Source of the DNA: Bacteroidota bacterium
GTDB lineage: Bacteria; Bacteroidota; Bacteroidia; Flavobacteriales_E; Vicingaceae
DNA length: 50,505 nt
NCBI GenBank assembly: GCA_016183805.1
Contig: JACPDX010000043.1
Location: 15,952 to 66,456 of the forward strand
Direction: 5' to 3'
Notes under the pieces: model-generated
Databases searched by the model: none
What the model was told of the DNA's origin: nothing
Seen by the model: the letters and a program-made list of their open reading frames with translations, nothing else
Position numbers and translations under genes: made by a program
Shown: piece after piece, positions 2,279 to 42,944 of the stretch
Position numbering within the stretch: position 1 is the first letter of the stretch
Layout: each line of letters begins with the position of its first letter

Positions 2279-3004
2279 GTGTTAAGCATCAGTCAAAAAA
2301 AATACATCCATTCTTTACAACTAAAAAAGTTCCGTTTACAACACGGAACTTTTTTAGTTGAAGGAGAAAAAATGGTTAAAGAGTTAATTCAATCTGACTT
2401 TGAACTTGAGTTTGTTTTTGTTACTGTTGGTAATAAAATTGAAAATTATAACGCTATAGAGATTTCTGAAAAAGAAATGAAATCTATTTCTGCTTTAACT
2501 ACTCCAAGTAATTTTTTAGCTGTTGCGAAACAAAAAAAACAAGTTGTGGATTTAACCCAAAACAACCTGATTTTAGTTTTGGATAACATCAAAGACCCTG
2601 GAAATTTAGGAACAATAATCCGAACAGCCGATTGGTTTGGAATTAACACTATTATTTGTTCTAACGAATGTGTGGATGTTTACAATCCAAAAGTGGTGCA
2701 AGCAACCATGGGTTCTTTGTTTAGAATAAATGTAACTTATGTTGATTTGGTTGAGTTTTTTCAACAAAACAACTCAATACCCTCTTATGGTGCATTACTA
2801 GAAGGTAAAAACCTTTATCAATACCCAATTAAATACAAAAAAGCATTTTTATTAATGGGTAGTGAGTCGTTTGGAATAGATAATAAGCTAATACCCTTCA
2901 TTACCGAAAAAATAATGATTCCAAAATTCGGGCAATCAGAATCATTAAATGTTGCAGTGGCTACCGGGATTTTGTGTTCAGCGTATCGACAGATAAACCG
3001 TTAG
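2279..3004 (+). CDS. TrmH/SpoU-family RNA 2'-O-methyltransferase
   Basis: The 241-residue SPOUT methyltransferase probably modifies a ribose 2'-OH in tRNA or rRNA using S-adenosylmethionine. The N-terminal substrate-binding part (about 1-90) includes the family sequence KKFRLQHGTFLVEGE. The SpoU domain shows motif 1 at about 105-118 (DPGNLGTIIRTAD), motif 2 at about 192-200 (LMGSESFGI) and motif 3 at about 222-231 (SLNVAVATGI). The start is GTG: an in-frame TAA at 2270-2272 blocks extension upstream, and the residues after GTG align with the family N-terminus, so the internal ATG at residue 32 is unlikely. An 18-bp perfect inverted repeat lies inside the gene (2318-2360). The 3' end overlaps the convergent gene by 44 bases. 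The target nucleotide cannot be told. Confidence 0.88.
   Translation: MLSISQKKYIHSLQLKKFRLQHGTFLVEGEKMVKELIQSDFELEFVFVTVGNKIENYNAIEISEKEMKSISALTTPSNFLAVAKQKKQVVDLTQNNLILVLDNIKDPGNLGTIIRTADWFGINTIICSNECVDVYNPKVVQATMGSLFRINVTYVDLVEFFQQNNSIPSYGALLEGKNLYQYPIKYKKAFLLMGSESFGIDNKLIPFITEKIMIPKFGQSESLNVAVATGILCSAYRQINR
2318..2360. repeat. Perfect 18-bp inverted repeat, terminator-like, inside a coding region
   Basis: Arms CAACTAAAAAAGTTCCGT (2318-2335) and ACGGAACTTTTTTAGTTG (2343-2360) are perfectly complementary around a 7-base loop. The GC core followed by six T (and preceded by six A on the other side) gives the form of a bidirectional intrinsic terminator. It lies at codons 14-28 of the RNA methyltransferase and 73 bases after the stop of the upstream OmpA gene, so it could end that transcript or attenuate the methyltransferase. 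Function is inferred. Confidence 0.6.
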
Positions 3005-3566
3005 AATTTCGATTAATTACCTTTAAAGTATTTCCAACCAAATCGTCATTTTCGGATGCTACAATAATAAAATTTCCATTTTTAAGGATTTCATTCATTG
3101 TTTCACTAATTAATATTCCATTTTTTTCTTGAATATTAAGTTTTGCGTAAAATTCTTTATTTGATTTATCTTTTAAAACCACTAATGTGTTTAATGTAGT
3201 AGTACCTTTTAGTTTTAATGATAAATGCTTGAATTTATAAATTTTTCTAATAGAAACGGTTTCGCTGTAACAAGATGTGCCATCAGTATTCACATAACGA
3301 ATTCTGTAAAATGAAATGTCTCTATAAGGTGTATGATCTGTTTCAATAAACGAACTATAGCTTTTTCCGGTATAAATTTTTGAAAACATTTTAAAATCTT
3401 TACCATTTTTTGATTTTTCAATAATAAAATGACTTAATCGATTTTGTTCAGCATAAGTCCATTTTATTTGTACGCTGTTATCAATATACATAGCTTCAAT
3501 ACTAGCATATGCTTTTTTAGAAACGTAAAGAGCACTTAAAACGATTAAAATAATTATCCGAAACAT
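2961..3566 (-). CDS. Small secreted protein with fibronectin-III-like fold, paralogue A
   Basis: This is an unnamed 201-residue protein. The ATG at 3566 was chosen because it places a typical signal peptide (MFRIIILIVLSALYVSKKAYA) at the N-terminus; an upstream ATG 11 codons earlier would add a polar extension. The mature part begins with a beta-rich segment (VQIKWTYAEQNRLSHFIIEKS) of the kind seen in domains of T9SS-associated extracellular proteins, followed by a FYRIRYVNTDG strand. It is clearly paralogous to the next gene (3718-4287): shared blocks include IEKSKNG, YRIRYVN, LNTLVVLKDKSN and FYAKLNIQE. No catalytic motif and no C-terminal sorting domain are visible. Its last 44 bases overlap the convergent methyltransferase gene. 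Function unknown. Confidence 0.65.
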   Translation of the reverse strand: MFRIIILIVLSALYVSKKAYASIEAMYIDNSVQIKWTYAEQNRLSHFIIEKSKNGKDFKMFSKIYTGKSYSSFIETDHTPYRDISFYRIRYVNTDGTSCYSETVSIRKIYKFKHLSLKLKGTTTLNTLVVLKDKSNKEFYAKLNIQEKNGILISETMNEILKNGNFIIVASENDDLVGNTLKVINRNSNGLSVDTLNTKSR

Positions 3567-3717
3567 TTTTTTAGATTTAATGGTTAATGAATAATACAAA
3601 TTTCGATAGGATAGTTATTAAATCTTACAGTGTTTATACCTAATTTATGTGGTAGAATTGACGTATTTTTTACTAGGTTATACTGCCTTTTGAAATAAAA
3701 AAAGGATAGAAGATGCT

Positions 3718-4287
3718 TTATTTATCAGGATTTTGGTTGATAATCGTTAAGATATTGCCAACTAAGTGATCATTCTCAGAGGCAATGATAATAAACTCTC
3801 CATCTCTAATGTTTTCGTTTAATGTTTCACTTATAAGTTTTCCATCAACTTCCTGAATATTAAGTTTTGCATAAAACTCACCATTCGATTTGTCTTTTAA
3901 TACCACCAACGTATTTAAAGAGTGGTATCCCTTTAGTTTTGAAATGAGCTGTTTAACAGGAGAGTATTTTTTTACAGTTACCGTTTCACTAAAAAAGTTA
4001 GAGCCACTTTTATTAACATAACGGATGCGATAATATGTTTTTGATTTAAAAGGCGAATAATCGATTTCTAAAAATGAAGAACAACATTTTCCATTTTGGA
4101 CTCGAAGAAATTCTTTAAAAGAGATTCCATTTTTAGATTTTTCAATAACAAAATGACTGAGCTGGCTACATTCAGTATAAGTCCAAGTTATTTCCACCCT
4201 GTTTTCTACAAAAATGGCTTCTACCTGAGCTTTTAAAACAGCAGAAGTAAATAACAATGAGCCAAGAAAAATAATTAACCGAAACAC
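3718..4287 (-). CDS. Small secreted protein with fibronectin-III-like fold, paralogue B
   Basis: This is an unnamed 189-residue protein and tandem paralogue of the gene at 2961-3566, with the same strand, layout and length class. A signal peptide covers about residues 1-20 (ending LKAQ). The beta-rich domain begins with VEITWTYTECSQLSHFVIEKS, and a conserved second half carries YHSLNTLVVLKDKSNGEFYAKLN and a C-terminal ASENDHLVGN block that matches the paralogue. Extra cysteines (ECSQ, KCCSS) are absent from paralogue A. The 151-base gap between the two genes suggests two separate transcripts or a simple tandem duplication. Function unknown. Confidence 0.65.
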   Translation of the reverse strand: MFRLIIFLGSLLFTSAVLKAQVEAIFVENRVEITWTYTECSQLSHFVIEKSKNGISFKEFLRVQNGKCCSSFLEIDYSPFKSKTYYRIRYVNKSGSNFFSETVTVKKYSPVKQLISKLKGYHSLNTLVVLKDKSNGEFYAKLNIQEVDGKLISETLNENIRDGEFIIIASENDHLVGNILTIINQNPDK

Positions 4288-34480: not shown

Positions 34481-34666
34481 TCTGTCCTACGATGCAGTGT
34501 CCACAATGATTTTAGCGTATTTTCTTTTGCGTCTCTGTCTGATAGAAACGCTTTTTGTCTGTCGGCAATGAGTGGTCAGGAAAGATTTAATTTTTGCGAA
34601 GCGAGGGAATTTTTTCTATTTACTGTGTGATTGGCTTTTGGCATATCTTTTTGTTTGGGTGTCGGC

Positions 34667-34950: not shown

Positions 34951-35787
34951 TCAAGGATTTACAGCCTTCTCTGAAATAGGATTATTGCTTTGAGTAGCGG
35001 TTTCCTTTTTATAATAGGTAAGGTAAAGGAACAAGCCTGTGAATACAAAACCACCTACAATATTTCCAATTATTGCTGGAATTTGATTCCAAATCCACCA
35101 ATCAGCAATTGTTATATTTGCATTAAACAAAATGGCTGTAGGGATAACAAACATATTTACCACGCAGTGTTCCAGCCCTAAAGCAAAAAAGATAAAAATG
35201 GGAAGCCATAATGCAACAATTCTACCTATAGTAGAAGTTGAAACATAGCCCATAACAATACCAAGCGTAACCATCCAGTTACATAATACGGCTTTAACGA
35301 AAACGACAATAAAGCCTTTGTTCCCAAGTTCTTTGTAGGCTAAAGTTTTACTTTCTGCTACCGAAATTATTTTATCAATAATATCTAAATCAAAGGTTTT
35401 GCCCATTTTGGTAATGTATATAAAAAACAATCCGCCAAAAAGTAAGCTACCTATAAGGTTACCTAAAGTGGCAAAAAACCAATTATGAGCAAGGTTTTTT
35501 ATCTTAGTTTCTTTCGCCATAACAGCCATTGGAATTATTGCAAAATTTCCTGTAACCAGTTCAAAACCTAATATAACGATGATAGCAAACCCAACAGGAA
35601 AAGCCAATGCACCTAATACTCCTGAACCACTTTGTATGGTAGTTAGAAATGCTAAAACTGTTGCAAATCCTAATAAGGAGCCTGATAGAATACTTCTAAT
35701 TAATATATCTTTTGCCGATAGTTTTGATTTTTTTGCTCCAATTTCAATTAAATTTGAAACAATTTCTTGTGGTTTAATACTATCCAT
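34951..35787 (-). CDS. Formate/nitrite transporter family (FNT) channel
   Basis: This 278-residue membrane channel has about six helices. Typical FNT features are the N-terminal PQEIVSNLIEIGAKKSKLSAKD segment, FELVTGNF (omega-loop region, like LFTGN), KAVLCNWMVTLGIVM, and FALGLEHCVVNMFVIP with the conserved His of the pore (the GFEHSIANMF position in FocA/NirC). FNT channels pass formate, nitrite, hydrosulfide or similar monovalent anions; the substrate here cannot be told from sequence. It is the last gene of a minus-strand series, and its ATG overlaps the stop of the FNR-like gene by 8 bases (35780-35787), so the two should be translated together. Confidence 0.9.
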   Translation of the reverse strand: MDSIKPQEIVSNLIEIGAKKSKLSAKDILIRSILSGSLLGFATVLAFLTTIQSGSGVLGALAFPVGFAIIVILGFELVTGNFAIIPMAVMAKETKIKNLAHNWFFATLGNLIGSLLFGGLFFIYITKMGKTFDLDIIDKIISVAESKTLAYKELGNKGFIVVFVKAVLCNWMVTLGIVMGYVSTSTIGRIVALWLPIFIFFALGLEHCVVNMFVIPTAILFNANITIADWWIWNQIPAIIGNIVGGFVFTGLFLYLTYYKKETATQSNNPISEKAVNP

Positions 35788-36220
35788 TTTTTATATCGTA
35801 AGTTTTGTATCTATTATCTACTTTATTTAATTCGTCCACAAAGAAATTAATAAGCTTAAGTGACAGTTCAGGCTTATTCTTGCATACCTCAAGTAGGGTA
35901 CTTTTATCAAAAAGACAAATTGATGAATTTTCAACGGCAACGGCACTAAATAAATGTTTTGTAGCATTAAAATCTTTGTGTCCGAAAATTTCTCCGTCTT
36001 TTGCGGTGTGGCATATTTCTTTTTCGCCTTTATTATTGATGTAATGCTCATTAATGCAACCACTTTGAACAACGTATAATCCGTTTACAGGCATATTTTC
36101 TAAATAAATATGTTGCCCACATTGAGTATGGATTTTTTTTACTTTACCCTCGTCACGATTAAAGATAAATTTGAAATAACAATTGGTGTTTTTGCAATCA
36201 ATACAGTTGACTTTTTCCAT
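35780..36220 (-). CDS. FNR-like cyclic-nucleotide-binding-fold sensor without HTH
   Basis: The 146-residue protein has an N-terminal cysteine group Cys6-X2-Cys9-X4-Cys14 (NCIDCKNTNC) plus Cys34, like the Fe-S ligands of FNR (C-X2-C-X5-C plus a distant Cys). A CNB beta-roll follows (LYVVQSGCINEHYINNKGEKEI, HTAKDGEIFGHKDF), then the first part of the dimer helix (LSLKLINFFVDELNKV). The protein then ends; the winged-helix DNA-binding domain (normally another 70 or so residues) is absent. The stop overlaps the FNT start, and the FNT N-terminus is normal, so this is not a frameshift in the HTH. It may sense oxygen or NO and act by protein contact; that is inference. Confidence 0.8.
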   Translation of the reverse strand: MEKVNCIDCKNTNCYFKFIFNRDEGKVKKIHTQCGQHIYLENMPVNGLYVVQSGCINEHYINNKGEKEICHTAKDGEIFGHKDFNATKHLFSAVAVENSSICLFDKSTLLEVCKNKPELSLKLINFFVDELNKVDNRYKTYDIKNG

Positions 36221-36229
36221 GGTTTATAG

Positions 36230-36721
36230 TTAGATTAGTTTACTTTTTGTGATTTCCAAAAACTTTCTTAGCTCACTTTTTCTCGTGGATTTCAGTATTA
36301 ATTTTATCATTATTACATAGAGTAAAGCAAAAATCATCATCACTCCAAATATGGAAAGCATCGTAATTTTATCGACCTCTGATGAGAGCGAAAACAACGT
36401 TGCGAAAACACCAATTACCAAAATAGTAAGTGTTAAGATGGTATTCGTATAGCTATTGTGTTCATCGATGTCAATATTAATATTTAGCATTGTTTTACCA
36501 TCTGCTATTTCCTCAATTTCACCCTGAATGGACGGACCTGTGCTATAAGGACTATATTTTACATTGCGGATATCAAATGCTTTGTCTTCAATACAGCCAT
36601 AATATTGAATTGCACAACTTTTTTTGGCAGTTTCAAATTCTTCAGCCGTAACCTGATAAAGTCTATTCAGTAATTCCGAAATAGGCAAGTCTGACTGTGT
36701 TTTAATTATTTTCGTTTTCAT
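36230..36721 (-). CDS. Two-helix membrane protein, paralogue of its upstream neighbour
   Basis: The 163-residue protein has a soluble N-terminal half (about 1-90) and two membrane helices (about 93-112 and 120-142) with a short charged tail. The soluble half shares a motif with the 170-residue protein at 36759-37271: AI-YYG-I----F-IR-V-Y-P-S--P-IQGEI-E. The motif looks like that of a group of unnamed Bacteroidota membrane proteins with F-I-R ... P-I-G-I strands. No enzyme motif is seen. It lies 9 bases before the FNR-like gene and 37 bases after its paralogue, inside the anion-channel operon; a regulatory or accessory subunit role is only an inference from position. Confidence 0.65.
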   Translation of the reverse strand: MKTKIIKTQSDLPISELLNRLYQVTAEEFETAKKSCAIQYYGCIEDKAFDIRNVKYSPYSTGPSIQGEIEEIADGKTMLNINIDIDEHNSYTNTILTLTILVIGVFATLFSLSSEVDKITMLSIFGVMMIFALLYVIMIKLILKSTRKSELRKFLEITKSKLI

Positions 36722-36758
36722 AATACACGATTTTTATATTGAATATTAATCTTGTTGT

Positions 36759-37271
36759 TTAATCTAAATCTTGAACAATTTGTCCATCTATTCTAGAAAC
36801 AAATGCTGCAAGTTCCTTTTTTTTCGTGCTGATAAGCGTTACCCTCTCTAAAGCAACTACTATAAAAGCAACCAAAATAAAAGAACTTGATAACAGTAAA
36901 CTTTGCCATTGAAACTCAGTTCCCCACATTACCAATATGCTGAGAAGCATAATAATAACACCTATTGGCAATAAGGTGCTGTAGTACGTTTTACGAACCA
37001 AATCATAAGGTTCTTTGATGTCCATTTCTACTTTAACAACCGTACGGTTGTTTACACCTTCCAAAATCTCACCTTGTATATATGGAGCGTGGCTCATTGG
37101 ACCGTATCGCACATGTCGGATATTAAAGGAATGTGAAGTTATATCACCGTAATAAATTGCATCATGCGACTGACGAATCATGTCAAAATCCGCAACCGTC
37201 ATTTCTTTTAATTTACTCATTAACTCGCTTGGAGTTTGATGGGTTTCTATGGTAATTGCTTTTGAATTCAT
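36759..37271 (-). CDS. Two-helix membrane protein, paralogue of its downstream neighbour
   Basis: The 170-residue protein has the same build as the 163-residue protein: soluble N-terminal half with [20 protein letters not shown] and P-IQGEI-EG, then two membrane helices (about 98-118 and 124-146) and a short tail with [14 protein letters not shown]. Identity with the paralogue is moderate, so the duplication is old. Its ATG overlaps the TDT stop by four bases (37268-37271), a classic coupled arrangement. Function unknown; location in the operon suggests a partner of one or both channels. Confidence 0.65.
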
Positions 37272-38347
37272 GATATTGGATTTTTAAGAGGTTTAATTTT
37301 TCTTGTTGAAAAAGTGTTGCTAATGACGGTATATATTAGACCGCTAATTGTTACCGTCCATGCAAACAAGGCGAAATAAATGAATACCGAAGGGATACTG
37401 AATAAAAATTGGAGGTCTGCGGCTTGAGCTAATCGGTAGGTACAAACTGTGTACATCCCGAAAGGGAAAACCATGCCCCAATATTGAGGATGGTACGTTA
37501 TAGGAATCAGCAGGTAAAAATGCCGCCACGCACCGAGAATAACAATGATAGGAATCCACCAAGTAGCAATTGCCCAAAACAAGAGCGTAAAACCCAACAA
37601 GAAATTGCGTATTGAATTAAGAAACTCCCATTCATTCGCATTCATGAAAAGTGTAGCACCTGCAAGCGTTGTTATAGCAACAGCACCCATATTAATCCAA
37701 TATGGCGGAGCAAACTCCTCCGCTCGGAGTTCAAAGAAGGTTAGGCGATAAAAAATCAATGTTATAATAATGATGTATAACATACAGCCCAACAGAAAAA
37801 GTGCTATTGATGAAAATATCACAATCTCTTTTGAAAATGGCAGATGAGAAGCGAGTTGCATTCCAAGTATAGAAATGGATTGCGTTGAAACCACCATAAG
37901 CAACCAAATTCCGTTCAATCCTTTTTCGAGTGATGGTTTTCCACGCTTAACAGTGATGGTAATAAAAAAGGAATAAATGAGAATTGTCCAAAAGAATAGT
38001 CCGATATAATAAAGAATAGCAGCAATTTGAAAGTTTTCCTGAAGAATAACAAATTGACTTCCGAGTACATTCGTTCCTGCAACAATGCTCAGAAAACCAG
38101 GGCTTCGGGAATGGTCAGTTATATCGTTTAGGAAATCCCGAAAATAAAATAGTATTCTACTTATAAGACATACCCATAAAATAGAATAGGCAACTATGTT
38201 AAAATAAAAAAGTGCTTCAGGGACAAAAGGAATTTTCAACAAAAATGCTGCAATAGAAACTATTCCTGTTGCCATGGTTAGGGCAAAATAAGCAGGAGAT
38301 AGATTTGCAATTCCCGTTTTAAAATGATTTATAAAATTAGTTGACAT
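37268..38347 (-). CDS. TDT/SLAC1-family anion channel or transporter
   Basis: The protein has 359 residues from ATG 38347 (a TTG seven codons upstream is possible). About ten membrane helices are visible, beginning with [20 protein letters not shown], the usual N-terminal TDT motif, and ending in [22 protein letters not shown] proteins include the E. coli tellurite-resistance protein TehA, plant SLAC1 anion channels and fungal malate/sulfite exporters, so the substrate is an anion but not which one. The gene heads the channel operon. Three direct-repeat operator candidates lie in the 150 bases upstream (38384-38504), just before the histidine-kinase gene. Confidence 0.85.
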
Positions 38348-38383
38348 ACAATGTTTTATATAGAACAAAGGTCAACTACTAAA

Positions 38384-38399
38384 CTTAAAATGAACTTAG
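38384..38399. promoter_or_regulatory. Candidate response-regulator site 1: CTTAA-N6-CTTAG
   Basis: CTTAA at 38384 and CTTAG at 38395 form a direct repeat with 11-bp period. The enclosing 14-mer TTAAAATGAACTTA is one of three copies (see 38459-38474 and 38489-38504). It sits 37 bases upstream of the TDT start codon. Confidence 0.55.
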
Positions 38400-38458
38400 T
38401 ATGAAATTAAAAAGAATTAAATTTTATTGTATAAAATACTGTAAAACAAGACCGTGAA

Positions 38459-38474
38459 CTTAAAATCAGCTTAA
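38459..38474. promoter_or_regulatory. Candidate response-regulator site 2: CTTAA-N6-CTTAA
   Basis: CTTAA at 38459-38463 and CTTAA at 38470-38474 give a perfect direct repeat with 11-bp period, inside TTAAAATCAGCTTA. An 11-bp direct repeat is the usual form of OmpR/PhoB-family operators. The site lies 75 bp from site 1 and 30 bp from site 3. Confidence 0.6.
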
Positions 38475-38488
38475 TTTACAGCAATAAG

Positions 38489-38504
38489 ATTAAAATTAGC
38501 TTAA
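38489..38504. promoter_or_regulatory. Candidate response-regulator site 3: ATTAA-N6-CTTAA
   Basis: ATTAA at 38489-38493 and CTTAA at 38500-38504 show the same 11-bp period, inside TTAAAATTAGCTTA. This copy overlaps the last three codons and stop of the histidine-kinase gene (stop at 38496-38498), so the operator would be partly intragenic. Confidence 0.5.
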
Positions 38505-39866
38505 ATTTGGCAACACGATTTCTACAGTTGTGCCTTGGTTTAATACAGAACGTATAAATACTTTGCCTGAATGTAACTTTATTATTCCTTTCACTAAAGA
38601 TAAACCAATTCCTTTACCTGGAAAACCTTGAGCGTTGCTACCCCTATAAAATGGTTCAAAGATGTGTTCTATATAACTTTCGGGCATACCAATTCCATGG
38701 TCTATAAATAACAATATAATATTCTTTTTTTCTGATACTACTTTTATTTCTACTGATTTATCTTCAGAATATTTACAAGCGTTATCAATAATATTGACAA
38801 AAGCAGTTTCTAATAATTTGGCTTTGCCTTTACAGCTCAGTTTCTTTTCGTCATCGGTTACGTTTTCAAAACTGATTTTGATGTTGCAGTCGGTTTTTTG
38901 TTTTTGTATTGCATCTCTAATGTTCCATAATATTTCATCAATGCGTATCTCTTCCAAATTTTGAAATAACGAATCCACATCTGTATTTGCAAGTTCCAGT
39001 AAATTATTAGAAAGTGTTCTTAAGTTCCGAACATGAGCGGAAACGGCTTCTAACGTAGCACGATACTCTTCCTTTTTTCTATCCTTCATCAATGTAACAT
39101 CAATTTGTCCGCTTATGGCAGTTAAAGGGTTTCGCAATTCGTGAGAAGCGTTGGAAACAAATCTTTTTTGAATAGTGAAAGCGGTTTCTAATCGGTCTAA
39201 CATTCGATTAAAAGTGGTGGTTAATTGTCCAATTTCATCTTTTACATGTTTAGATTTTAAGCGGTAGCTTAAGTTACTGGAAGTAATATTTTCTGCTTGC
39301 TTTACAATATCTGTAATGGGTTTTATAAAATACCGTGCAAAAGTCCATCCGCTAATAAAAATGATGAGCATAATGATAAATAATCGAATCGTCAGGATAT
39401 TTTTCAGGTTATTAATGTAGCTCATCCCATGTATATCCGTGGCTGAGGCAAAAAGATAATAGGTTTTTCCTTTATCCATGTGTTTAAATCCAAATCCTTC
39501 TGTGTTGCCTTCCGACCAAGTATAATTTTCTTGTTTATTTAGAATGTTAATTAAATCAGCAGTTTTTGAATGTGGTATATCAGAAGTATATATCAAATTA
39601 TTATTTTCATCATAAATAGTAATTTGTTCCTCATTCAAGTAATGTAAATTCTTTTCTTCAGGTGATTTTTCGGAGGATAAATTTTTCGGTTTTCCATCAG
39701 CGTTTTTCAATATTTCAAGCTTTTCAATTGCTCTGTTTTGTAGTCGTGCATGAAAATCTTCCTGTCTGTATTCTTCAGAAAGGTAGTAGATGGCAAATGA
39801 AAAAAAGGAGAGCATTATGCCTACAATTAATGTAAAAAGTAAGGTAAATCGTGTTCTGATTTTCAT
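38496..39866 (-). CDS. Two-component sensor histidine kinase
   Basis: The 456-residue kinase has two membrane helices (about 8-30 and 157-176) enclosing a roughly 125-residue periplasmic sensor region (EEYRQEDFHARLQNRA ... DIHGMSY). A HAMP linker (about 177-230) and HisKA follow, with the phosphorylated His242 in SNASHELRNPLTA. The HATPase_c domain has the N-box (NIIDNACKYSE), DHGIGM and GKGIGLSLV boxes. It would phosphorylate the OmpR-type regulator encoded 2 bases upstream. The sensor region resembles that of CusS/QseC-type kinases only in layout, and no ligand can be named. The gene follows the regulator on the same strand and precedes the channel genes. Confidence 0.92.
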   Translation of the reverse strand: MKIRTRFTLLFTLIVGIMLSFFSFAIYYLSEEYRQEDFHARLQNRAIEKLEILKNADGKPKNLSSEKSPEEKNLHYLNEEQITIYDENNNLIYTSDIPHSKTADLINILNKQENYTWSEGNTEGFGFKHMDKGKTYYLFASATDIHGMSYINNLKNILTIRLFIIMLIIFISGWTFARYFIKPITDIVKQAENITSSNLSYRLKSKHVKDEIGQLTTTFNRMLDRLETAFTIQKRFVSNASHELRNPLTAISGQIDVTLMKDRKKEEYRATLEAVSAHVRNLRTLSNNLLELANTDVDSLFQNLEEIRIDEILWNIRDAIQKQKTDCNIKISFENVTDDEKKLSCKGKAKLLETAFVNIIDNACKYSEDKSVEIKVVSEKKNIILLFIDHGIGMPESYIEHIFEPFYRGSNAQGFPGKGIGLSLVKGIIKLHSGKVFIRSVLNQGTTVEIVLPNLS

Positions 39867-39868
39867 CG

Positions 39869-40573
39869 TTATTCGTCTTTTAACATATATCCCATACCAA
39901 CAAGCGTATGCAGTAGTTTTACAGAAAAATCTTTATCAACTTTCTTTCTCAAAAAATTCATGTAAACTTCTATCACATTCGTTCCTCTGTCAAAATTAAT
40001 GTCCCATATTTTTTCGGCAATATCTACTTTGCTCAATACTTTATTTTTATTTATCGCCAAAAGCTCCAGCAAAGCAAATTCTTTAGCGGTTAATGTAATT
40101 TCTGTTCCTCCCCGTTTTACTCGTTTATTATTCGTGTTAATTGTTAAATCTGCTATTTTTATAATGTGGTCATCATTTGAGGTATTTTCTGTTGTCTGTG
40201 TTATTCTTTTAGAAAGCACGTTAACTCTTGCTAGTAATTCAGGGAAATCAAAAGGTTTAACAAGGTAATCATCTGCACCAGCATCAAAACCTTCCAGTTT
40301 ATCGTCTAATGAACCAAGTGCAGTAAGCAATAATATTTTTGCTGAATTATTTTCTTGTCTGATTTTTTTACAAAGTTCAAGCCCATTTATTTTTGGGATA
40401 ATGATGTCGAGAATGATAACATCATAATTTTTCGAAAATGCCAATTTTTTTCCACATTCGCCATCATAAGCAAAATCTACATCAAAGCCGGATTCTTCTA
40501 GTCCTTGCCGAATAAACTGTAGCACATCTGGTTCGTCTTCAACGATGAGAATTTTTAGGTTTTCTGTTTTCAT
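39869..40573 (-). CDS. OmpR/PhoB-family response regulator
   Basis: This 234-residue regulator has a receiver domain (about 6-120): acidic pocket Glu12-Asp13, phospho-acceptor Asp56 (VIILDIIIPKING), Thr at LLLTALGS and conserved Lys in DYLVKPFDF. The C-terminal winged-helix domain (about 137-234) shows VKRGGTEITLTAKEFALLELLAINKNKVLSK and VIEVYMNFLRKKVD, then the GMGYMLKDE end. It fits CusR/QseB-type DNA-binding regulators. Two bases separate it from the kinase gene. The CTTAA-N6-CTTAA repeats at 38384-38504 are the best candidate targets; none is apparent upstream of its own gene. Confidence 0.93.
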   Translation of the reverse strand: MKTENLKILIVEDEPDVLQFIRQGLEESGFDVDFAYDGECGKKLAFSKNYDVIILDIIIPKINGLELCKKIRQENNSAKILLLTALGSLDDKLEGFDAGADDYLVKPFDFPELLARVNVLSKRITQTTENTSNDDHIIKIADLTINTNNKRVKRGGTEITLTAKEFALLELLAINKNKVLSKVDIAEKIWDINFDRGTNVIEVYMNFLRKKVDKDFSVKLLHTLVGMGYMLKDE

Positions 40574-40956: not shown

Positions 40957-41142
40957 TTGAGGGTCTGCTTGATTGTTCCTTTTTCTAGTGCGGTGGGGCA
41001 GAAATTAAATCTTTCTTGGGTCGGACTGTGTGTCGCTCGTTTTTTTGTCTGCTCGAAATATTTTAACTGGACTGTCCGTTGAATATTTCACCGTCATTGT
41101 CAAGGTAGCACGGTCGTTTTTACCATTGGCGGTAACTTGTTT

Positions 41143-42401: not shown

Positions 42402-42944
42402 ATGGATAACACATCAAAACAATACGATTCAATAATAAAGATTTGTAGCGACATTTTCACAAAAAAAATGAAAGATTATGGCAGTGCATGGCGAATTTTA
42501 CGCACCAGCTCACTTACCGACCAGATTTTTATTAAAGCAAAACGCATCAGAAGTATTGAAGAGAAAGGGTTTAGTAAGGTGGATGAGGGTATTCGTTCGG
42601 AATACATTGGCATTATAAATTATTGCATTATGGCTTTGGTTCAATTGGAATTGGGCTACAACGAAAACACCGAATTAGATTTTACAGAAGCAAAAAGATT
42701 GTACGACAAGTATTTTTTACAAGCAAAAAGCTTGATGGAAAATAAAAATCACGATTACGATGAAGCATGGCGTGAAATGCGTTTGAGTTCGTTAACGGAT
42801 TTAATTTTAATGAAATTGTTGCGTACCAAACAAATAGAAGATAACGAAGGTAAAACATTGATATCGGAGGGTATTGATGCAAATTACCTGGACATGATTA
42901 ATTATGCAGTGTTTGCCATGATTAAAATTGAGTACAATAGTTAA
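42402..42944 (+). CDS. DUF1599 protein, internally duplicated
   Basis: The 180-residue protein contains two copies of the DUF1599 unit: about 12-85 (KMKDYGSAWRILRTSSLTDQ ... SEYIGIINYCIMALVQLE) and about 100-178 (KNHDYDEAWREMRLSSLTDL ... ANYLDMINYAVFAMIKIE). Each has the DY--AWR-(L/M)R-SSLTD box and an IN(Y)-(I/V)-A--(Q/K)(L/I)E helix. It is cytosolic, with no known activity. Conserved chromosomal neighbours in the phylum are folP upstream and a DoxX-like gene and tpiA downstream, as here. Confidence 0.88.
   Translation: MDNTSKQYDSIIKICSDIFTKKMKDYGSAWRILRTSSLTDQIFIKAKRIRSIEEKGFSKVDEGIRSEYIGIINYCIMALVQLELGYNENTELDFTEAKRLYDKYFLQAKSLMENKNHDYDEAWREMRLSSLTDLILMKLLRTKQIEDNEGKTLISEGIDANYLDMINYAVFAMIKIEYNS

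Follow-up and report, generated by a model that had tools for sequence, protein, structure and literature searches.

Nar reduces nitrate on the cytoplasmic side of the membrane, and a regulated anion channel would fit beside it because such a reductase needs nitrate entry and nitrite exit. In systems of the NarK and NarX-NarL type, two-component control is paired with small-anion transport tied to NarGHJI, and the NarX and NarQ kinases carry a four-helix periplasmic sensor domain with a nitrate-binding motif. In the present study, we analyzed a 50,505-nucleotide stretch of DNA from a Vicingaceae member of the Bacteroidota (assembly GCA_016183805.1, contig JACPDX010000043.1), hereafter the window. 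Seven genes on its minus strand encode an OmpR/PhoB-type response regulator (RR), a sensor histidine kinase (HK), an anion channel of the SLAC1/TDT family (TDT), two small paralogous membrane proteins (twinA and twinB), an FNR-like sensor domain without the helix-turn-helix (HTH), and a channel of the formate/nitrite transporter family (FNT). We consider it fairly probable that this locus is a horizontally exchanged module that serves nitrate-respiring Bacteroidota as a regulated nitrate/nitrite channel system. Like the NarK and NarX-NarL type systems, it pairs two-component control with small-anion transport tied to NarGHJI. Unlike them, it uses SLAC1/TDT and FNT channels instead of the major facilitator superfamily transporter NarK, an OmpR-type regulator, and a kinase whose sensor domain was modeled as Cache-like; it also lies outside the nar cluster and adds the twins and the HTH-less FNR.

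The individual parts were also compared with described proteins. The FNR oxygen sensor (chains 8qto, 5cvr, and related chains) shares the Fe-S-type cysteines and the sensor domain with the module protein, which lacks a DNA-binding domain in 7/7 members. The module FNT belongs to PF01226, as do FocA, NirC, and LCIA, and differs from them in sharing an operator type with a TDT channel. The module TDT is a Pfam SLAC1 channel like plant SLAC1/SLAH3 and bacterial TehA, whereas it represents a bacterial subfamily coupled to an unrelated small membrane protein. According to PMC3509319 and PMC10645844, plant SLAC1/SLAH3 conduct nitrate, and the plant SLAC-type channels are opened via phosphorylation of cytosolic parts. 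The parts of the module are of known kinds. A literature search returned no account of their combination, nor of the twins as a family, an FNR without HTH, or a TDT-NarG link.

The original prediction had listed seven minus-strand open reading frames (ORFs) in the order RR, HK, TDT, twinA, twinB, FNR-like, and FNT. The ORF list showed that all seven were real and located where they had been placed (Table 1), and the spacings were as described, with a gap of 2 bases between RR and HK and overlaps of 4 bases between TDT and twinA and of 8 bases between FNR-like and FNT. Profile models supported the families named for the two channels and the FNR-like protein, and the twins proved to be paralogues, their identity extending over 159 residues. 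The TDT gene probably starts at the ATG at 38347; the TTG start at 38368 in the ORF list is less likely, as by eye a promoter-like TTTG sits at that position. Measured to this ATG, the gap between HK and TDT is 148 bases.

TwinA was sought in 80 relatives by sequence search and in 395 genomes of the class with a profile. It was found in 9 of the 80 relatives, and the profile matched 14 of the 395 genomes, one of which (G227) was dropped as too weak to count, with an 81-residue match on a 5 kb contig without a module gene. The search of plasmid records returned no twin. We inspected the neighbourhoods of all twin-positive genomes and of one contig of a named metagenome-assembled genome (MAG), L024. 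RR, HK, TDT, and twinA had the same order and strand in 16/16 loci spanning the region (G000, the window's own genome, G001, G003, G009, G022, G038, G047, G053, G078, G113, G142, G258, G276, G406, G425, and L024), which represent 8 or more families. Because its contig begins within twinA, G194 counts among the twin-bearing genomes and not among these 16 loci. L023 and L025, equal in length to G001 C17 and G038 C26, were not counted in addition to them. The 4-base overlap of TDT and twinA was also seen in several loci besides the window. The last three genes varied. TwinB, FNR-like, and FNT were all present in G000, G001, G038, G022, and G194; G406 had FNR-like and FNT without twinB; G003 had FNR-like alone, its FNT being relocated outside the module; G009 had twinB followed by the contig end; and L024 had a decayed twinB remnant. 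The remaining eight loci had no tail gene within the stretches inspected, and twinB was present in 6 loci in addition to the L024 remnant. Only the first four genes are constant and form the core of the module, and the last three make up an optional tail. The conserved seven-gene unit of the original prediction therefore stood for the core and not for the tail, and the variable neighbours that it had named as an objection were found in the tail only, the core being kept in 16/16 loci. By eye and by ORF starts, the flanking genes appeared to differ in most loci; G053 and G276, from one genus, have common flanks, and G022 and G406 share an FNT-adjoining gene. This gene has no Pfam match, begins MASTSETGHAKN, and lies at L018:6950-7411 in G022 and L072:10353-10997 in G406, and the two flanks are about 79% identical in DNA over 884 bases.

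In the gap between HK and TDT, four TTAA-type half-sites spaced by 10, 11, and 11 bases end beside a TTTG box, for which we take the Bacteroidota -7 consensus to be TAnnTTTG. A pattern of four half-sites with uniform 11-base spacing was rejected, as it missed the site, the first spacing being 10. The strict pattern was drawn from these gaps, so that matches there are partly by construction and the rest of the genome is the informative part. All 16 specified bases were matched in 13 of the 16 gaps, and the other three scored 13 or 14. In a test with 200 shuffles, the observed score was never reached in 14 of the 16 gaps (0/200 for the window), the others being G258 (14/200) and G113 (1/200). 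In the 200 bases upstream of RR, the best score never exceeded 13 of 16 and was 11 of 16 in the window. Over 14 whole module genomes, the strict pattern had 15 matches, compared with 8 for a reversed control pattern. Twelve of the matches were at the TDT promoter, one each in 12/14 genomes (none in G258 or in G194, whose contig is without TDT), and 3 were elsewhere. One of these lay about 60 bases upstream of the sole FNT gene found in G003, one in the window's own genome about 104 bases upstream of a gene for a Porin_O_P outer-membrane porin, and the third in G113.

The conserved promoter and operator in the HK-TDT gap suggested that the seven genes probably form two transcripts, RR-HK and TDT to FNT. 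OmpR/PhoB family regulators use direct-repeat DNA sites, and the C-terminal region of RR is strongly conserved across the module loci; because of both, we infer that the main operator is probably the site of this response regulator. The relocated FNT with the same operator provided strong sequence evidence that one regulator would serve both channels. As the original prediction held, it is very probable that the two-component system sets channel expression, the predicted operator preceding both TDT and, in G003, the relocated FNT. We do not claim Porin_O_P as a member of the regulon, as phased TTAA repeats may equally be a Pho-type box. That site (L089:1501-1536, G000 contig C15) has phased TTAA half-sites, five by eye, with a TAGTTTTG box, and a short ORF next to it encodes an integrase N-terminal domain.

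The link to nitrate was provided by the co-occurrence of the module with NarG (model TIGR01580). In the class sample of 395 genomes, where the separate draws were taken, from their equal size and handles, to be the same genomes, NarG was found in 12/13 twin-bearing genomes and in 31/382 others (one-sided Fisher p ~7e-12), a significance inflated by shared ancestry, yet the 13 genomes span 9 families. With G227 counted as twin-bearing, the numbers were 12/14 and 31/381. NarG was present in 15/16 module genomes, compared with 9/25 hand-chosen comparison genomes; the L024 MAG was outside the NarG counts, and the G425 match, at the start of a contig, was fragmentary and did not reach the family cutoff. 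In the family to which the window's genome belongs, the proportions were 5/6 and 5/18 (p 0.028). The sole exception among the module genomes was the window's own, in which narH is cut by the start of contig C3 and is followed by narJ and narI; its narG was therefore probably lost to an assembly gap.

The relatives of the TDT channel pointed in the same direction. The window TDT matched Pfam SLAC1 with 173 bits (gathering score 27.9) and the NCBIfam model TIGR00816 tdt with 90 bits (cutoff 237), which places it in the wider family and outside the named subfamily. Across the 16 module TDTs, 135 residues were invariant, and no sequence match was found in the PDB at E 0.001. In a search of 295 genomes, 8 further ones had a relative with 39-50% identity. 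In five of these the relative was nar-linked, with 47-50% identity, in or near a nar/moa cluster, and these relatives formed a clade. The relative stands beside the end of narG, NarH, NarK, and MoaA in G307; beside NarK and FNR, with narG 4 kb away, in G145; with NarI, NarK, and MoaA in G224; beside a moaA-like gene, with narG about 30 kb away, in G323; and, in G072, in a moa/moe-type cluster that has narG at a distance of about 14 kb. Some of the moa gene names at these loci were assigned by eye. Another TDT clade adjoins an FdhA-like molybdoenzyme in G152, G242, and G326 (L131, L132, and L129). In the tree of TDT sequences, the clades followed context (support 95/93 for the module, 100/100 for the nar-linked, and 100/99 for the fdh-linked clade); the tree has a midpoint root, and the fdh-linked clade includes one unlabelled row and long branches.

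Several observations, in addition to the shared ancestry, weigh against this assignment to nitrate respiration. The association with NarGHJI rests on co-occurrence, not on gene neighbourhood or a substrate assay, and the module and narG were on different contigs in 15/15 module genomes with narG. The strict operator was absent from the nar loci scanned, and 31 NarG-positive genomes of the class had no twin. Full-length NarK-like genes were found at the nar loci of 8/15 module genomes, and no link to NirK was seen (3/16 module and 6/25 comparison genomes). G203, outside both the twin and the NarG positives, has an FNT of the module type (67%). The nearest solved relative of FNT is LCIA, not a nitrite channel, and the modeled HK sensor names no ligand. 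Some non-module genomes also had no NarK-like gene at their nar loci; since the presence of NarK varies with and without the module, we abandoned the view of the module TDT as a substitute for NarK.

The twins could not be assigned to a known family. Neither twinA nor twinB had a Pfam match above cutoff; 23 family members gave weak Pfam matches only (best 2.7e-4), and the twin profile matched no PDB chain up to E 1. The AlphaFold model of twinA, with a predicted local distance difference test score (pLDDT) of 85, consisted of an alpha/beta domain (residues 1-85 and a C-terminal strand) and two long helices, which we take as transmembrane. According to the positive-inside rule, the lysine/arginine-rich ends suggested that the alpha/beta domain is cytoplasmic. 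Foldseek returned nothing at E < 0.001. A KA1/AMPK alpha-C fold (VIA Z 6.3-7.5, root-mean-square deviation (rmsd) 2.7-3.9) was within the common range and too weak to name, and VIA matches of the helices up to Z 7.7 were likewise within the common range of the tool. We regard twinA, whose gene overlaps that of TDT, and twinB as probable accessory subunits of this channel.

The FNR-like protein matched the Fnr model over residues 5-132 of 146. Its members had 141-146 residues in 7/7 cases and no C-terminal HTH DNA-binding domain, and four Fe-S-type cysteines were kept in 7/7, as an N-terminal C-x2-C-x3/4-C and a fourth cysteine at 99-102, which aligned with a cysteine of FNR structures in the chain alignment. 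In a tree of 46 sequences, these proteins formed one clade with 100/100 support. Among the profile matches in 247 genomes of the phylum, the window copy was the sole short uninterrupted one; a match in G586, in a frame of 158 residues, was broken by a TGA. The protein looks like an old lineage in which the HTH was lost once and the ligands were kept, and a single clade keeping four ligands speaks against a broken gene. Having no HTH, the protein is not expected to bind DNA on its own, and it may gate a channel or twin or form pairs with full-length FNR. It is encoded after a twin in the channel operon in 7/7 loci, once (G003) without FNT, a position that slightly favours the twin/TDT side. We propose tentatively, as a possibility short of an expectation, that the HTH-less FNR and the twins form a direct Fe-S gate of a SLAC1-type nitrate/nitrite channel (and FNT) that responds to oxygen or nitric oxide (NO). 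A doubtful alternative, compatible with the nitrate assignment, is that the protein acts as a decoy that pairs with full-length FNR and blocks its DNA binding, with the channels under two-component control only. The match to FNR chains does reach the pre-HTH region, at about FNR position 163, and contig C74 of the window's own genome encodes an FNR of full length in which this four-cysteine pattern recurs; the constant place in the channel operon, even where FNT is missing, argues against a decoy.

The original prediction had proposed a flux of formate, nitrite, sulfite, sulfide, or a similar small anion. Nitrite, with nitrate, was favoured by the NarG co-occurrence and the nar-linked TDT relatives, whereas formate from pyruvate formate-lyase was disfavoured, this enzyme being found in 0/41 genomes searched. 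It is unlikely that TDT and FNT move formate, for example by feeding formate dehydrogenase or exporting it. The window FNT matched PF01226 with 221 bits (cutoff 34.6), and this family membership would agree with formate, as would the higher score of the FocA model (108 bits, cutoff 290) over NirC (59 bits, cutoff 293), although both were below cutoff, as was the general fnt subfamily TIGR00790 (161 bits, cutoff 232). The TDT clade beside the FdhA-like molybdoenzyme in 3 genomes suggests a formate- or nitrate-type channel partner, and the formate-bound chemoreceptor sensor domain 8py0 matched the HK sensor with Z 7.5. However, the fdh-linked clade is separate from the module clade, and a formate system does not predict the NarG link. 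The absence of pyruvate formate-lyase counts against it as well, the formate dehydrogenases of the module genomes being outside that search. The three genomes with fdh-type TDT were outside the 43 NarG positives of the class sample.

The model of the HK sensor domain (pLDDT 78) was alpha/beta and Cache-like, with VIA matches to TlpQ (Z 9.6, rmsd 3.5, 113 residues aligned) and PhoQ (Z 9.1, rmsd 3.5, 104 aligned); Foldseek gave nothing at E < 0.001 (best 0.0056). The sensor resembles Cache/PDC domains. The Bacteroidetes nitrate-sensing kinases near nar genes that are described in PMC8199190 lack HAMP, whereas the module kinase has a HAMP domain by Pfam and appears to be of a different type. Very improbably, the pair would be CusRS/CzcRS-like and control a TehA-like exporter in metal or tellurite resistance. 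The top NCBIfam models were indeed cztR_silR_copR and cztS_silS_copS, and CusS and CzcS sensor domains were among the weaker fold matches; by eye, an RND-type efflux cluster adjoins the module of G142 (L076), and in L024 the module is followed by a cation-efflux-like ORF. However, RR and HK remained below the cutoffs of both heavy-metal models (TIGR01387, 238 vs 279 bits; TIGR01386, 199 vs 293 bits), Pfam found no metal family among the seven genes, and metal resistance leaves the NarG link unexplained.

The chance that FNT acts like algal LCIA in bicarbonate/CO2 flux is slim. LCIA (9v2a_A) was the closest solved chain, at 2e-27, with formate and nitrite transporter chains from 1e-19, and the GLEH...NMF region of FNT aligned with LCIA, GLEH being identical; its histidine is, we assume, the conserved central histidine of the channel family. 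However, it is general knowledge that families this distant leave the substrate unfixed, and bicarbonate also leaves the NarG link unexplained. That the genes are chance neighbours without joint function, as the varying tail might suggest, is scarcely credible and already refuted for the most part by the core order in 16/16 loci, the overlapping genes, and the operator common to TDT and FNT even where FNT has moved away.

Horizontal exchange of the nitrate/nitrite channel module was indicated by the identities between loci. G001 and G003, of one genus, had 96% identical NarH, whereas their modules were 74% (RR), 57% (HK), 66% (TDT), and 47% (twinA) identical; the G003 module was closer to that of G022 (81, 66, 72, and 68%, respectively). 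Between G000 and G038, the identities formed a mosaic, with 88% for twinA, 82% for RR, 75% for HK, 74% for TDT, and 69% for twinB. In G038 and G022, inverted sequences of 18 and 20 bases bracket the whole module (L016:6210-12102 and L018:6294-13285), and a scan of 348.5 kb from these two contigs gave no occurrence of its 15-base core; no transposase was noticed with these units. In the window, an inverted 18-base pair had only two sites in 50.5 kb, with two matches also in 1/100 shuffles, and the longest exact inverted match was 14 bases, where one control pair reached 15. The patterns of these pairs were defined post hoc, after looking, and the flanking pair was not seen in the other 12 of 15 loci tested. 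The pairs are a hint only of a possible mobile-unit boundary. The core module of G425 lies between two identical 30-base direct repeat copies (L075:4484 and 9303).

Elsewhere in the window, no tRNA was found, and no Rfam model matched at its gathering score. A protein with two DUF1599 (nucleotide modification associated) stretches is encoded at 42402-42944, divergent from a dihydropteroate synthase-like gene (Pterin_bind). The neighbouring secreted-looking proteins at 2961-3599 and 3718-4287 are paralogous by eye, and the former had no Pfam match at E 0.01.

Table 1. Coordinates and assignments of the module genes, the predicted regulatory sites, and the flanking sequences in the window.
Feature	Position	Strand	Evidence
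RR, OmpR/PhoB-type response regulator, 234 residues	39869..40573	-	Pfam Response_reg 1.7e-30, Trans_reg_C 3.6e-21
HK, sensor histidine kinase, 456 residues	38496..39866	-	Pfam HAMP, HisKA, HATPase_c; periplasmic Cache/PDC-like domain (model)
Upstream TTAA half-sites, two pairs, 11 bases within each pair	38460..38504	-	By eye; first pair at the stop codon of HK
Main operator (predicted), four TTAA-type half-sites, spacings 10, 11, 11	38385..38420	-	Strict pattern match G000:C60:54336-54371
Bacteroidota-type -7-like box (GACCTTTG), just 3' of operator	38366..38373	-	Sequence
TDT, SLAC1/TDT-family anion channel, 359 residues from probable ATG	37268..38347	-	Pfam SLAC1 1e-50
TwinA, small membrane protein, 170 residues	36759..37271	-	Alpha/beta domain and two transmembrane helices (model)
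TwinB, twinA paralogue, 163 residues, optional tail	36230..36721	-	31% identity to twinA
FNR-like sensor domain without HTH, 146 residues, cysteines C6, C9, C14, C102	35780..36220	-	cNMP_binding 2e-12
FNT, formate/nitrite transporter family channel, 278 residues	34951..35787	-	Form_Nir_trans PF01226 2e-65
18-base flanking sequence, right-hand copy, inverted relative to left	34580..34597	+	Only two sites in window
18-base flanking sequence, left-hand inverted copy, one base different	40998..41015	-	Only two sites in window

Collectively, we propose that a periplasmic Cache-like sensor kinase and an OmpR-type regulator would switch on a separate TDT-led transcript, with the regulator binding four phased TTAA half-sites that end at the promoter. 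The most likely task of the channels would be the entry of nitrate, the exit of nitrite, or both, in the service of the Nar reductase, which faces the cytoplasm. TwinA (and twinB) would probably add a cytoplasmic domain to TDT as accessory subunits, and the HTH-less FNR, in which the Fe-S ligands and the dimer-helix region are kept, would probably be a post-translational oxygen/NO sensor of the complex. The HTH-less FNR poses the question of whether an Fe-S oxygen/NO sensor acts on a membrane channel rather than on DNA; the Fe-S gate, if true, would mean that a transcription-factor domain has been made into a post-translational switch that controls anion respiration. Models of denitrification and of partial nitrate reduction have a practical gap where nitrate entry and nitrite exit in nitrate-respiring Bacteroidota, without or beside NarK, are concerned. 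For this gap, the locus offers a candidate, namely a NarG-associated TDT channel with a dedicated regulator, a short predicted operator, and an accessory family without a Pfam model.

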